A DNA stretch of 64,000 nt from Arenimonas composti TR7-09 = DSM 18010 (GTDB taxonomy: Bacteria > Pseudomonadota > Gammaproteobacteria > Xanthomonadales > Xanthomonadaceae), in assembly GCF_000426365.1 (NCBI RefSeq), contig NZ_AUFF01000009.1:1-64000 (forward strand), in the 5' to 3' direction. Position 1 is the stretch's first letter, and each line of letters opens with the position of its first letter. The position numbers were made by a program, and so were the translations under genes. Positions 54,326 to 59,728 of the stretch are shown here, in pieces. Under the pieces are notes generated by a model. That model was not told the origin of the DNA. It did no database searches and saw only the letters and a list, made by a program, of their open reading frames with translations.

Positions 54326-54354
54326 TTAACACCTCCTGGGCACGGCGCTACACT
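54326..54354 (+). promoter_or_regulatory. Sigma70-like promoter of the GGDEF gene
   Basis: -35 TTAACA (54326-54331; 5 of 6 to TTGACA), a 17-bp spacer and -10 TACACT (54349-54354; 4 of 6). The likely start of transcription is near 54361, about 22 bases before the GTG start codon at 54383. It separates this unit from aceA. Confidence 0.55.
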
Positions 54355-54382: not shown

Positions 54383-55402
<1,020 letters not shown>

Positions 55403-55467: not shown

Positions 55468-58098
55468 ATGAACCTCGACGAGTCCGGTCCCGGCGACAGC
55501 GCCGCGCCGCAGGTCAAACCCCTGCTGCGCACGGTGCTGCTCGCCGACATCGTCGACTCGACGGCGCTCGTCGAGCGCCTCGGCGACATGCGTGCGGCGC
55601 TGCTGCTGCAGAAGCACGACCAGCTGCTGCGGCAGTCGATCCAGTTCTGCCACGGCCAGCTGATCGACAAGGCCGACGGCGTGCTGGCGCTGTTCGAACG
55701 GCCGATCCAGGCGCTGGATTTCGCGCTGCGCTACCAGCGCGGCCTGCGCGAGCTCGGGCAGGCCGAGGGCATGTCCCTGCGCGTCCGCATCGGCGTGCAC
55801 GTCGGCGACGTCATGATGTGGGCGAACGAGCCCCAGCACGTGCGCGCCGGCGCCAAGCCCTTCGAGGTCGAGGGCCTGGCCAAGCCGGTCGCGGCGCGGC
55901 TGATGAACCTGGCGCTGCCGGGACAGATCCTGATGTCGGGCATGGCGCAGAACCTGTGCCAGCGCGCCGTCGGCGAGCTCGGCGAGGCCGGCCGCGAGCT
56001 GCGTTTCGTGCTGCACGGCCGCTACCGGTTCAAGGGCGTGCCGGCGCCGATGCTGGTGCACGAGGTCGGCGAGCCGGGGCTGTCGCCGCTGCGGGCACCG
56101 GATTCCGGGCCGAAGGCCTGGCGCGAGCTGCCGCTGTGGCGGCGGCCGCCGGTGCTGGCGCTGGAGCTGTTGCTGGTCGGCGTGCTGGTGCTCGGCGGCG
56201 TGTGGTCGACGCTGCGGGCGCCGCCGGCGATCGCGTTCGCCGAGCGCGACTGGGTCGTCGTCGCCGACCTGCAGAACCGCACCGGCGAGGCGCTGTTCGA
56301 CGACTCGCTCGACACCGCGCTGCGCGTCGGCCTCGAGCAGTCGCGACACATCAACCTGGTGTCGGAACTGCAGATCGACCGCGCACTGGCCCGCATGCAG
56401 CGGCCGGGGCAGCCGGTCGACCGCCAGCTGGCGACCGAACTCGCGCTGCGCGAGGGCGCGCGGGCGGTGATCCTGCCGACGGTCGCCGAGGTCGGCGGCG
56501 TGATCCGGGTGAGCCTGGAAGTCATCGACCCACGCAGTGGCGTCACCGTCTACAGCGAGAGCGCCGACGCCCGCGACGCGGCGCAGGTGCTCGACGCCCT
56601 CGACGACAACACCCGCCGCATCCGTGGCCACCTCGGCGAGGCGATCGCCGCGATCGACGCCACCAGCGAACCGCTCGAGCAGGTCACCACCGGCAATCTC
56701 GAGGCGCTGCGGGCGTTCTCGCTGGGGGTGCAGGCGCGCTACCGCGGCAGGCTGGACGAGGCGCGCCAGCTCTTCGAGGAAGCGATCCGGCTCGACCCGA
56801 GCTTCGCGATGGCGCACCTGCAGCTGGCCTTCATGCGCTATGTCGACAACGATGCCACGGGCACCCGCCACTTCGTCGACCTGGCCGCGCAGAACCGCAC
56901 CCACCTGACCCGGCGCGAGCAGCTGTTCCTCGACGCCGCCGCGGCGACCCTCGACGAGCCGGAACTGGCGCTGGAAAAGTTCCGCCTGCTCGCCAGCCTG
57001 TATCCGGAGGAATTCCGCGCCTACGGCAACTACGCCTGGTTCGCGCACTACGACCTGCTGCAGACCGAGAAGGGCCTGGCGCAGCTGACGCCGGCGCTGA
57101 CGCCGCGCAATCCGCGCGCCGGGCAGGCGCACTACACCGCCGGCGTGCTGAACCTGGCGCTCGACCGCTACGCCGAGGCGCAGAACCATTTCGAGCAGGC
57201 CAGCCTGCTCGGCGTCGGCGGCTTCAACCGCGAGCACGCCGAGACCTTCGTCGCCCAGCGCCGCTACGCCGACGCTGCGCGCGTGCTCGCGCTCGACAGC
57301 GCGACCGGCTCGGACGTCGTCGACCTGGAGATGCGGCTGATCGACATCAGCCTGCCGCTGGACCAGGGCGACATCGCCCAGGCGACGGCGGTCGCCGGCC
57401 AGCTCGCCGCCGCGGCCGCCGGCGCCAGCGAACTGCACCGCTGGAACCTCGAGGGCATCCGCCTTTCGGTGCGTGCGCTGGATCCGGACCCGGAATTCGC
57501 CGCCGACCTGCGAGCCCATGCCGCCGCCCAGGCCGGCCGCCTCGCCGATGGCGACGTGCTGCTGCAGCGGCATGTGCTGTTCCAGGCCCTCGCCGCCGGC
57601 TGGATGGCGGCCAACAGCGGCGACACCGTCACTGCACAGGCGATGCTCGACGTCGTCGCCGGCAACCGGCTCGTCGACACCTACCCGGCCAATGCGGGCA
57701 TGCGCCGGGCGCTGGAAGCCGAACTGGCGTTGGCCGCGGGCGATCCCGGCAAGGCGGTGGCCTTGCTGAAACGGGCGGTGACGCTGCCCGGCGCGAGCTA
57801 TTTCGAACGCGCGGTGCTGGCGCGCGCCCAGTACGCCGCCGGAGACTGGGAGGGCGCGGCCACCACCGCCGCATGGCTGGCCGACAACCGCGGTCGCGCC
57901 TTCGCCGAAAGCACCAGCATCGGCCATTGGCAGCCGATGAACGTCGTCGAGAGCACGCTCGCGCTGAAGCTGCGGGCGATGGCGCTGACCCGGGCGGGGC
58001 GTGCGAAGGAAGCGGGGGAGGCGGCGGCACGTTTCGCCGCGGCCTGGCCCGACGGGGAGAACGCCGCGATCGTGCAGCGGCGCTTCCCTGCCGACTGA
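55468..58098 (+). CDS. Class III cyclase-like/TPR membrane protein ('peptide modification system cyclase' type)
   Basis: 876 residues. N-terminal class III nucleotidyl cyclase homology domain (about 18-200): metal Asp27 in LLADIVDSTALVERLGD, second metal Asp70 in KADGVLALF, RIGVHVGDV, and the ARLMNLALPGQILMSG end. The transition-state Asn is replaced (Pro140 four residues before Arg144), so cyclase activity is doubtful. One membrane helix lies near 228-250. Then comes a region resembling TolB/FlgO-like nucleotide or sugar-binding folds (about 260-410), and TPR repeats (about 410-860). I remember this architecture as the predicted 'peptide modification system cyclase' found beside NHLP-type precursors in Xanthomonadales, and the next two genes fit. 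The stop is one base from the stop of the convergent precursor peptide gene. Confidence 0.8.
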   Translation: MNLDESGPGDSAAPQVKPLLRTVLLADIVDSTALVERLGDMRAALLLQKHDQLLRQSIQFCHGQLIDKADGVLALFERPIQALDFALRYQRGLRELGQAEGMSLRVRIGVHVGDVMMWANEPQHVRAGAKPFEVEGLAKPVAARLMNLALPGQILMSGMAQNLCQRAVGELGEAGRELRFVLHGRYRFKGVPAPMLVHEVGEPGLSPLRAPDSGPKAWRELPLWRRPPVLALELLLVGVLVLGGVWSTLRAPPAIAFAERDWVVVADLQNRTGEALFDDSLDTALRVGLEQSRHINLVSELQIDRALARMQRPGQPVDRQLATELALREGARAVILPTVAEVGGVIRVSLEVIDPRSGVTVYSESADARDAAQVLDALDDNTRRIRGHLGEAIAAIDATSEPLEQVTTGNLEALRAFSLGVQARYRGRLDEARQLFEEAIRLDPSFAMAHLQLAFMRYVDNDATGTRHFVDLAAQNRTHLTRREQLFLDAAAATLDEPELALEKFRLLASLYPEEFRAYGNYAWFAHYDLLQTEKGLAQLTPALTPRNPRAGQAHYTAGVLNLALDRYAEAQNHFEQASLLGVGGFNREHAETFVAQRRYADAARVLALDSATGSDVVDLEMRLIDISLPLDQGDIAQATAVAGQLAAAAAGASELHRWNLEGIRLSVRALDPDPEFAADLRAHAAAQAGRLADGDVLLQRHVLFQALAAGWMAANSGDTVTAQAMLDVVAGNRLVDTYPANAGMRRALEAELALAAGDPGKAVALLKRAVTLPGASYFERAVLARAQYAAGDWEGAATTAAWLADNRGRAFAESTSIGHWQPMNVVESTLALKLRAMALTRAGRAKEAGEAAARFAAAWPDGENAAIVQRRFPAD

Positions 58099-58099
58099 C

Positions 58100-58381
58100 T
58101 CAGCGGCGCGGCATTTCCAGCAGGATCGGGCTGTGCGCCGACTTGGCGGACAGCAGTTGCGCGCGCAGCGCGTCGCGGCTGGCGGCGATCGCGTCCTTGC
58201 TCGCCAGCTGGCTGACCGCCAGGCACATCCACGCGCCGCGCTGCACGCCGGCATCGGCGGCCGGGCCGTACCCGAGCGAGGCCAGCGCCTGGCGCGGATC
58301 GTTCTGGAAGGCGGCGCGGAAATCGTCGTCGGTCGCGAGCTTGTCGAGCAGCTTGTCGACGAGGCTGTCGGAAAGAGTCAT
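58100..58381 (-). CDS. NHLP-related RiPP precursor-like peptide
   Basis: 93 residues. The N-terminal part SLVDKLLDKLATDDDFRAAFQNDPRQALASLGY is the nitrile-hydratase-alpha-like leader pattern (DDxFRxxFxxDPxxALxxLG) known from NHLP precursor families and from the 'putative modified peptide' group of Xanthomonadales. The C-terminal part (about 48-93) has one Cys (Cys52 in GAWMCLAVSQ), seven Ser, no Thr, and ends PILLEMPRR. It is convergent with the cyclase-like gene and divergent from the SagB-like dehydrogenase gene. A Shine-Dalgarno AGGGGA is seven bases upstream of ATG 58381. The modification site and final product are unknown. Confidence 0.8.
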   Translation of the reverse strand: MTLSDSLVDKLLDKLATDDDFRAAFQNDPRQALASLGYGPAADAGVQRGAWMCLAVSQLASKDAIAASRDALRAQLLSAKSAHSPILLEMPRR

Positions 58382-58401
58382 GCGTTGTTCCCCTGGCTGG
58401 C

Positions 58402-58469
58402 GCAAGGCGCCTGAAAACGCCGGTTCGCCACGCGGCCACCGCGGTCGCGCCGCGCCGGCGGCGCCTTGC
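58402..58469. promoter_or_regulatory. Inverted repeat in the divergent precursor / dehydrogenase region
   Basis: The perfect 10-bp dyad GCAAGGCGCC (58402-58411) and GGCGCCTTGC (58460-58469) has 48 bases between the arms. It lies between the starts of the precursor peptide (minus) and the dehydrogenase (plus), so it is a candidate shared operator. Confidence 0.45.
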
Positions 58470-58522
58470 ACGATATCGCGCGTCGCTGGCACTGTCACCG
58501 CCCGTCCGGCGAGGGAAAGCGC

Positions 58523-59728
58523 ATGCGCGTGCGTCGTTGTGCCCATCTGATGCTCGAGCTCGACGAGGAGCCGCGCTTCGCGTTCGCGAGCCTGCTGTCC
58601 GGCGGCGACGGCCTCGATCGCAGCCCGCGCTGGCGGGCCTTCGCGGCGCATCTTCCGGCGCCGGTCACGATCGACGCGTCGCTGCTGCCGGCACTGCAGG
58701 CGGTGTCGCGCGACGACTGGACGACGGCCGATGCGCTCGCGGAACGCTTCGGCGACGCGACCGCGCAGGCGCTGCTCGCCAGCGGCCTGCTGGTCGGCGA
58801 CGACGCCGGTCCGGACGGAGGCGAGAGCGAAATCGCCCGCGACGCTCAGCGCCGCGACGCCGCCGCGCGCGACGTCGCCTGGTGGACGCCGGCGCTGGTC
58901 GCGCAGGCACACGGCGGCTGGCACGACGTCGACATCGAGGCGCGCAACGAGGAAGGCCTGACCCTCAACAGCGAAGAGCTGGTCGACGCCTTCGGGGTTG
59001 CGCCGACGCACGACTTCCGCCGCGTTCCGGCAATGTCGCCACAGCACTTGCCGCCGCCGCGGCGCAGTGGTTTCGACGATCTGCTCGCGGCGCGCCGCAC
59101 CTGCCGCAACTTCGACCCGCAGGCGGCGCTCGACGGCGCCGCGTTCGCGACGATGCTGCGCCGGGTCTGGGGCGCCCTGGGCACGAAGACGCTCGCCCCC
59201 GGCGCGGTGGCGGTGAAGAAGACCAGCCCGGCCGGCGGTGGCCTGCACGCGGTCGAGGCCTATGTGCTCGTGCAACGCGTCGACGGCGTCGCCCCGGGTC
59301 TGTACCACTACCTGGCGCTGGCGCACGCGCTCGAGCCGCTGCAGGCACTGGCGCCGGACGCGGCGAACGCGCTGGCGCACCGCTTCGTCGCCGGCCAGCA
59401 CTGGTTCCGCGACGTGCCGGCGATGGTGGTGATGGTCGCCCGCTTCGACCGGCTGTTCTGGAAATACCGCCGCCACACCAAGGCCTGGCGCGTCGTCCAT
59501 CTCGATGTCGGCCACCTGTCGCAGACGATGTACCTGTCCGCGGCCGAGCTCGGACTCGGCGCCTTCGTCACCGCCGCGATCAACGACCGGGCCGTCGACG
59601 CCGCCCTCGGCCTGCCGCCGCTGCGCGAAGCGGCGATCGCGATCGTCGGCTTCGGCGCCCGCTCGGCGGAGACGACGGTGATGGAACTCGACGACTACGA
59701 CGAGGTGCGAATAACGAGGGAAGAGTAA
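58523..59728 (+). CDS. SagB-related peptide-maturation dehydrogenase
   Basis: 401 residues from ATG 58523, with GAGGGA six bases upstream (an upstream TTG at 58466 is unlikely). Residues about 180-395 are a nitroreductase-like FMN domain of the SagB type: LLAARRTCRNFDPQAAL, VKKTSPAGGGLHAVEAYVLVQ, GLYHYLALAHALEPL, VHLDVGHLSQTMYLSAAELGLGAFVTAAIND. In thiazole/oxazole-modified peptides SagB oxidises azolines to azoles; here no YcaO cyclodehydratase is nearby, so the reaction may differ. The N-terminal 180 residues have no recognised domain and may bind the leader. It is the divergent partner of the NHLP precursor. Confidence 0.85.
   Translation: MRVRRCAHLMLELDEEPRFAFASLLSGGDGLDRSPRWRAFAAHLPAPVTIDASLLPALQAVSRDDWTTADALAERFGDATAQALLASGLLVGDDAGPDGGESEIARDAQRRDAAARDVAWWTPALVAQAHGGWHDVDIEARNEEGLTLNSEELVDAFGVAPTHDFRRVPAMSPQHLPPPRRSGFDDLLAARRTCRNFDPQAALDGAAFATMLRRVWGALGTKTLAPGAVAVKKTSPAGGGLHAVEAYVLVQRVDGVAPGLYHYLALAHALEPLQALAPDAANALAHRFVAGQHWFRDVPAMVVMVARFDRLFWKYRRHTKAWRVVHLDVGHLSQTMYLSAAELGLGAFVTAAINDRAVDAALGLPPLREAAIAIVGFGARSAETTVMELDDYDEVRITREE

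Follow-up and report, generated by a model that had tools for sequence, protein, structure and literature searches.

Among described systems, the nearest relative of the locus considered here is a signalling pathway of Xanthomonas campestris, in which XC_0250, composed of a cyclase domain and a tetratricopeptide repeat (TPR) domain without assigned function, makes cyclic GMP (cGMP), and in which the linked XC_0249, a cyclic nucleotide monophosphate (cNMP)-binding and GGDEF protein, binds cGMP, whereupon synthesis of cyclic di-GMP (c-di-GMP) rises, according to the main text of An et al. 2013 (PMC3770947). The other point of reference is a trio of NCBIfam families, TIGR04510 (cyclase), TIGR04509 (peptide precursor) and TIGR04511 (dehydrogenase), whose model descriptions are predictions and make no mention of a GGDEF partner, of the work on guanylate cyclase or of a cassette; in the literature searched, we found no paper naming the three families. 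Both meet in the window, i.e., the whole stretch of 64,000 nt analysed here (positions 1 to 64,000 of contig NZ_AUFF01000009.1 of Arenimonas composti TR7-09 = DSM 18010, order Xanthomonadales). As in X. campestris, a gene for a class III cyclase with TPRs lies beside a cNMP-GGDEF gene, and all three NCBIfam families have members over cut-off at this locus. In contrast, peptide, dehydrogenase and polymorphism have no place in the main text of PMC3770947, which also contains no XC_0251, no XC_0248 and neither of the words ‘sensor’ and ‘periplasm’, and no peptide is mentioned in the accessible text of the papers naming XC_0250 (PMC3770947, PMC8042644, PMC6341742). Our comparison of relatives indicates that the locus consists of a fixed GGDEF gene and cyclase domain, while the predicted periplasmic TPR half varies in concert with the peptide and the dehydrogenase. 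This suggests that the three genes are a swappable front end of a known cGMP switch and that the peptide is the switch's private signal.

The four-gene locus across the order

A sequence-only reading of the window had described a three-gene peptide-modification set, and all three open reading frames were found: a receptor-like class III cyclase of the XC_0250/TIGR04510 family (55468..58098, plus strand, 876 aa), a convergent precursor related to nitrile hydratase leader peptides (NHLP) (58100..58381, minus strand, 93 aa) with one base between the two ends, and a divergent SagB/ThcOx-like flavin dehydrogenase (TIGR04511). The family names given there proved right, since a hidden Markov model search against NCBIfam puts each protein far over its cut-off (TIGR04510, 856 bits against 400; TIGR04509, 85 against 34; TIGR04511, 447 against 240). 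The dehydrogenase had been started at a TTG (58466). The ATG at 58523, preceded by gagggaaag, is the likelier start, since conservation of the N-terminus within the family sets in at this point; this gives a corrected gene at 58523..59728 (plus strand, 401 aa). The three-gene extent was too narrow, as a fourth gene, for a reported cGMP effector, had been overlooked: a cNMP-binding and GGDEF protein of the XC_0249 family (54383..55402, plus strand, with a probable GTG start; Pfam cNMP_binding 59.7 bits, GGDEF 109.4 bits), predicted to be a cGMP-activated diguanylate cyclase, ends 65 nt before the cyclase start.

In an even draw of 200 genomes from the order (with completeness of 90% or more and contamination of 5% or less in 195 of them), TIGR04510, TIGR04509 and TIGR04511 each exceed the cut-off in one identical set of 55, so that the co-occurrence proposed from the window holds. 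Sub-cut-off matches add one further genome for the precursor and ten more for the dehydrogenase. A precursor family found mostly without the other two would have spoken against the peptide reading, and 0/200 genomes have the precursor alone over cut-off. When the ten best candidates were scored per genome, a match to the GGDEF protein (E <= 1e-40) was found in 54/55 carriers vs 4/145 non-carriers (Fisher p 8e-43, with genomes taken as independent despite kinship). The gene lies upstream of the cyclase on the same strand, within 657 nt, in 50/55 carriers and elsewhere in the genome in four (G013, G023, G170 and G185). Three of the four non-carriers with a GGDEF gene (G097, G102 and G181) have the usual neighbours and miss cyclase, precursor and dehydrogenase; the fourth, G029, has a weaker match. 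In the wider phylum, TIGR04510 matched in 6/299 genomes, all within this order, and a contig search with a single protein reached five Arenimonas loci and one distant match. No further gene family is common to the loci, except neighbours equally kept in non-carriers. As judged from these sequences, the four genes are associated.

Cassette borders, co-variation and exchange

The polymorphic cassette is the main clue to function, and it is invisible from a single window. In Arenimonas, the genus of the window, mean identity is 0.87 for the GGDEF protein (dgc) and 0.80 for the catalytic domain of the cyclase, with 0.45 for the TPR part, 0.39 for the C-terminal part of the peptide and 0.47 for the N-terminal half of the dehydrogenase. 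The corresponding mean protein identities in genus g8 are 0.95 and 0.96, then 0.35, 0.40 (post-leader peptide) and 0.39. Among the genera with more than one member, the drop from cyclase domain to TPR part was also seen in g3, g1, g2, g6, g36, g17 and g12, being weaker in the last.

Comparison of locus DNA in 400-nt windows locates the borders. Upstream, genomes G191 and G151 (genus g6) share 92-100% nucleotide identity over the 7 kb that reach to the cyclase domain, followed by a single comparison window at 81%; inside the block, eight windows (3.2 kb) have no match and one has 30%, and downstream identity is 97-100% over the next 6.8 kb. Five between-type pairs, including this one, were compared: G501/G518, G502/G057 and G503/G516 repeat the pattern with one or two partial matches within the block, and G497/G504 has no downstream alignment, hence its right border is not seen. 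The within-type controls G057/G191 and G191/G518 keep 62-93% identity through the block itself. For A. composti, a species without a close pair, the borders were transferred from relatives (pairwise DNA comparison, sliding identity), which places a putative exchangeable cassette at 56190..59728 (no strand assigned), comprising the periplasmic half of the cyclase, the precursor and the dehydrogenase. We hold the anatomy and the cassette with very high confidence.

Within the block, sensor and peptide co-vary. In genus g6, 29/34 genomes carry the cyclase, and the other five are without the GGDEF gene at E <= 1e-40. With the broken carrier G514 excluded, the remaining 28 fall into six sensor types by TPR identity, and the post-leader peptide yields the identical partition: its identity is at least 0.63 among 126 within-type pairs and at most 0.49 among 252 between-type pairs, at between-type averages of 0.92 for the GGDEF protein and 0.93 for the cyclase domain. 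The leader is looser and overlaps between and within types (within-type minimum 0.65, between-type maximum 0.70). In the 17 genomes of g3, sensor identity correlates with peptide identity at a rho of 0.73, or 0.72 with the cyclase domain held constant (0/500 permutations), and GGDEF identity with peptide identity at a rho of -0.06.

Tree comparisons point to exchange between lineages. In a tree of the cyclase domain (quick method; 52 rows, i.e., 11/29 g6 genomes and 41 others picked by genus), each genus forms a single clade, and the TPR tree needs five changes for g6, six for g3 and three for g8. Monophyly of g6 is rejected for the sensor (approximately unbiased test, p 6.75e-5). The sensor places X_G151 with g8 and g11 rows, a grouping that was named post hoc from the TPR tree and that the cyclase-domain data reject (p 0.0024). 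The dehydrogenase tree splits g6 too, with five changes, three of them forced. On a DNA tree of the conserved half for the 28 g6 loci (without G514), the six types need 11 changes, where 5 would be the least possible; shuffled types average 12.2, and 40/200 shuffles are as low as 11. The changes of type thus appear close to random expectation on this tree.

Several loci depart from the common layout. As an example, around a single cyclase in L117 (G185 C2:339500-359400) there are nine TIGR04509 and five TIGR04511 matches (one sub-cut-off), in an array that looks like a store of cassettes and lies ~181 kb from the GGDEF gene. Five tandem near-identical precursors occur in L120 (G082 C2:519500-539000), where the genes run precursor-dehydrogenase-cyclase, the cyclase is divergent and a GGDEF match at E <= 1e-40 is lacking. 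The cyclase and the dehydrogenase of L064 (A. daejeonensis) are each broken across two or more frames, either through decay or through sequencing error, and in L174 (G514 C1:122000-140000) the cyclase is spread across several frames, the dehydrogenase is in two parts ~1.2 kb apart, no precursor was found and the GGDEF gene is intact. A distinct cassette type spread over five genera (L093, L096, L101, L102, L118 and L119) has a short precursor, mostly of 78 aa, tails such as WVVFCR and a reversed dehydrogenase. G132 and G153 (L080 and L082) have a cassette that is identical at the protein level (99-100% in DNA) between flanks of mostly 95-98%, possibly a recent transfer between species. Just downstream of the locus, G087 and G163 have an additional sensor half that is membrane-anchored, lacks a cyclase domain and shares ~50% identity with the G142 sensor. 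Sensor-only proteins, with a membrane helix and a TPR half, stand directly downstream of the dehydrogenase at L084:11001-12926 and L086:11023-12948, and may be either displaced older sensors or decoys.

Predicted signalling output and peptide chemistry

The four-gene set can be tied to the cGMP-to-c-di-GMP pathway because its GGDEF protein and cyclase belong to the XC_0249 and XC_0250 families. The sequence-only reading had suggested that the cyclase domain may signal, which agrees with the inclusion in this family of XC_0250, a guanylate cyclase by the main text of PMC3770947; by the same text, its statement that the families were not experimentally explained fails for the cyclase. Of the six residues of XC_0250 named in that text, all are matched in G057 and five in G191 and G151, in each case at offset 0. 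The seven named cGMP contacts of XC_0249 are matched in g6 at an offset of 0 or -1, and a shift in numbering brings other genera into agreement as well. Since the residues fit the published numbering and the g6 cNMP domain is 94% identical to PDB chain 5h5o, we infer that g6 is Xanthomonas; g8 had been considered for this genus and was set aside, as g6 matches the published residues better. PDB entry 4KG1, that of PMC3770947, is absent among the matches listed (60 of 77), and the related chain 5h5o was found. Neither a correction nor a retraction of PMC3770947 was seen among the 20 of 54 papers listed.

The cGMP contacts F73, E90, L91, H98 and E146 are invariant in 53/53 relatives, the window included, and the GGDEF motif is likewise present in 53/53. 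The GGDEF protein of the window keeps 5/7 of the named contacts, E146 included, with V142 replaced by L and N145 by G, two positions that vary among the 53 relatives. Its cyclase keeps 4/6 named residues (D41, D71, A150 and A161), with V for L73 and M for L157, as in many relatives. By family membership and residue conservation, the window cyclase is predicted to make cGMP, and the GGDEF protein to bind it and make c-di-GMP. Note that D28 and D71 (XC_0250 numbering) are conserved in 58/58 cyclases; the main text of PMC3770947 names D41 and D71 as the metal ligands, alignment with Ma1120 places D28 at the usual first Asp, and the Arg of the AAR motif, called substituted in that text, is present in 57/58.

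The window cyclase would comprise a cytosolic cyclase domain (residues ~18-200), one predicted transmembrane helix (~222-247) and a predicted periplasmic part (~255-876) formed by an alpha/beta domain followed by a TPR array. In 58/58 relatives, the most strongly hydrophobic segment begins between residues 214 and 249, and in 58/58 its N-terminal side is the richer in K/R; given one hydrophobic segment and this charge distribution, the TPR half should be periplasmic. A structure model of the sensor half (mean predicted local distance difference test score 91.7) also has a TPR array following a small alpha/beta domain.

In the precursor, an alignment of 54 relatives delimits a conserved leader (~1-40), a variable linker, an LASK-D (LA-x-K) motif with a helix and a C-terminal tail (~81-93). 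The ‘nitrile-hydratase-like leader’ of the sequence-only reading stands only as NHLP-related, its score against the general NHLP model TIGR03793 being 16.7 bits, below the cut-off of 50.9. Within each of the three types that have four or more members, conservation is highest in the tail (0.96, 0.87 and 0.93) and lowest in the linker (0.72, 0.67 and 0.66); the tail is likely to be the functional product, released by a putative cleavage. A precursor with a conserved leader stands beside a modifying enzyme, as expected of ribosomally synthesized and post-translationally modified peptides (RiPPs). The dehydrogenase has a SagB domain (TIGR03605, 102 bits vs a cut-off of 78.4), and with the azoline oxidases SagB, McbC, ThcOx and BmdC it shares the nitroreductase-type flavin mononucleotide fold and the Lys-Tyr pair, here K333-Y334, present in 56/57 relatives. 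Its fold matches McbC, BmdC and ThcOx, and an AlbA-type fold was matched as well. As had been noted for the window, no YcaO and no exporter lie within the locus; more broadly, YcaO (PF02624) is missing from the window's genome and present in just 3/55 carriers. Azole formation is unlikely, since YcaO is so rare among carriers and 33/57 precursor tails are without Cys; our guess, by comparison with the AlbA-type fold, is that the dehydrogenase might perform an alpha-beta or similar C-C oxidation.

Around the four genes, isocitrate lyase, malate synthase and a LysR regulator lie upstream of the GGDEF gene and a YifB-type ATPase downstream of the dehydrogenase. Two promoter-like sites were found in the region vs 0.2 expected: one upstream of the precursor, within the 141-nt divergent gap (58470..58498, minus strand; a consensus match only, 9/12), and one upstream of the GGDEF gene (54326-54354, plus strand), whose position next to aceBA is conserved.

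Favoured reading, rivals and known parallels

We favour a polymorphic modified-peptide signal with a matching receptor guanylate cyclase, to which we give a probability of about 0.5. On the input side, the SagB-like flavin enzyme would recognise the precursor via its NHLP-related leader and oxidise it without YcaO; the C-terminal tail would be released, then exported, and would bind the periplasmic TPR domain of the cognate cyclase and set its cGMP output. On the output side, the cytosolic cyclase domain would produce cGMP, which the upstream cNMP/GGDEF protein would bind to make c-di-GMP. Tail, enzyme and TPR sensor would be inherited as one cassette, with incompatible types swapped between strains and genera, as fits a private signal-receptor pair. 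Leader recognition, oxidation, release, export, tail-sensor binding and the sign of the response are inferred steps; the cassette borders, the sensor-peptide co-variation, the intact predicted active sites and the lack of YcaO are features of the compared sequences themselves. Two observations favour the tail as the sensor's ligand, which we put at even odds: the periplasmic, not the cytosolic, half of the cyclase co-varies with the peptide, and the cassette borders enclose sensor, peptide and enzyme. The whole chain, in which an oxidised ribosomal peptide would serve as a pheromone specific to its type, sensed by the periplasmic TPR half and relayed via cGMP to c-di-GMP, in an exchangeable self/non-self cassette across the order, falls somewhat short of even odds.

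Several observations weigh against this reading. The three-gene set of G082 has no GGDEF gene, no exporter or protease was found as a conserved member across the loci, and C39 peptidase domains are missing from 17/55 carriers. Linkage alone would also yield sensor-peptide co-variation, and the nearest neighbour by sensor is the nearest by peptide in only 25/48 genomes (13/48 for the cyclase domain). The predicted dehydrogenase is less strictly coupled to sensor type than the peptide is: its N-terminal half overlaps in g6 (within-type minimum 0.45, between-type maximum 0.58), and its tree fails to recover every sensor grouping. Finally, the cyclase domain alone restored biofilm formation in X. 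campestris, according to the main text of PMC3770947, and the sensor is therefore not required for output there.

A polymorphic and bounded cassette would also suit a toxin-immunity or bacteriocin system, in which the modified peptide hits non-cognate competitors and the TPR half protects the producer or reports the attack via cGMP. Several genomes have extra precursors, and the extra sensor halves without cyclase domain downstream in G087 and G163 resemble orphan immunity modules. We consider this reading unlikely, as all carriers keep a single signalling output, the locus has no exporter, the tails share no toxin-like feature and, in the examined carriers, sensor and cyclase domain still form one protein. 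The lack of an exporter, together with a crude scan in which neither precursor nor dehydrogenase has a strong hydrophobic stretch at its N-terminus, would instead suit an internal regulator, where the peptide stays in the cell, the oxidised precursor informs the cyclase of redox or flavin state from the cytosolic side and the ectodomain responds to an unrelated envelope cue. However, the cytosolic domain is near-invariant between types and the periplasmic half co-varies with the peptide, the reverse of what a ligand acting on the cyclase domain from inside the cell should produce, and we find this reading rather improbable.

Diversification driven by phages or predators, with the ectodomain as surface target or phage sensor, the cGMP/GGDEF arm as a Pycsar-like alarm and the peptide as an accessory, draws on a weak match of the GGDEF protein's cNMP domain to Pycsar effector models (E 2.8e-7, 27.8 bits). 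Yet a PADLOC search (E 0.01 for the cyclase) gave no match for cyclase, precursor or dehydrogenase, the peptide co-varies with the sensor, and the chromosomal position is conserved beside aceBA, not in a defence island; the chances of this reading seem slim. As for an ordinary azole-type pathway of the thiazole/oxazole-modified microcin kind, with its cyclodehydratase encoded elsewhere in the genome, the Lys-Tyr pair and the fold matching McbC and ThcOx agree with it, but the scarcity of PF02624 and the Cys-free tails described above nearly refute it for most carriers, and we regard it as very improbable.

If the peptide-receptor reading is true, an orphan peptide-modification family gains a function, and RiPP signalling would run via cGMP and c-di-GMP in a group rich in plant-associated bacteria. 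The guanylate cyclase of X. campestris, published without a function of its sensor half or an input in the main text of PMC3770947, would receive as its input a peptide encoded next door. The polymorphism suggests kin recognition, and a YcaO-free setting is added for a SagB-type enzyme.

The system would then work like the receptors of animal natriuretic peptides and the agr pheromone groups together. The peptide quorum-sensing loci agr and comQXPA combine a hypervariable peptide, processing enzyme and sensor half with a conserved output half. The present locus is alike in that its variable block holds the peptide and the sensor half and its output half is conserved, as seen here from relatives rather than from strains of the same species; it differs in its outputs, a predicted guanylate cyclase and diguanylate cyclase, in its enzyme, a flavin dehydrogenase, and in its Gram-negative hosts. 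Animal natriuretic-peptide receptor guanylate cyclases have an outside ligand-binding part, one membrane span and an inside guanylate cyclase, a layout like that of the cyclase described here, for which ligand binding is proposed and homology of the sensor is not claimed. Altogether, the three families and the cGMP pathway have each been described on their own, and polymorphic peptide-receptor loci are known as well; the proposed receptor guanylate cyclase is the new element.

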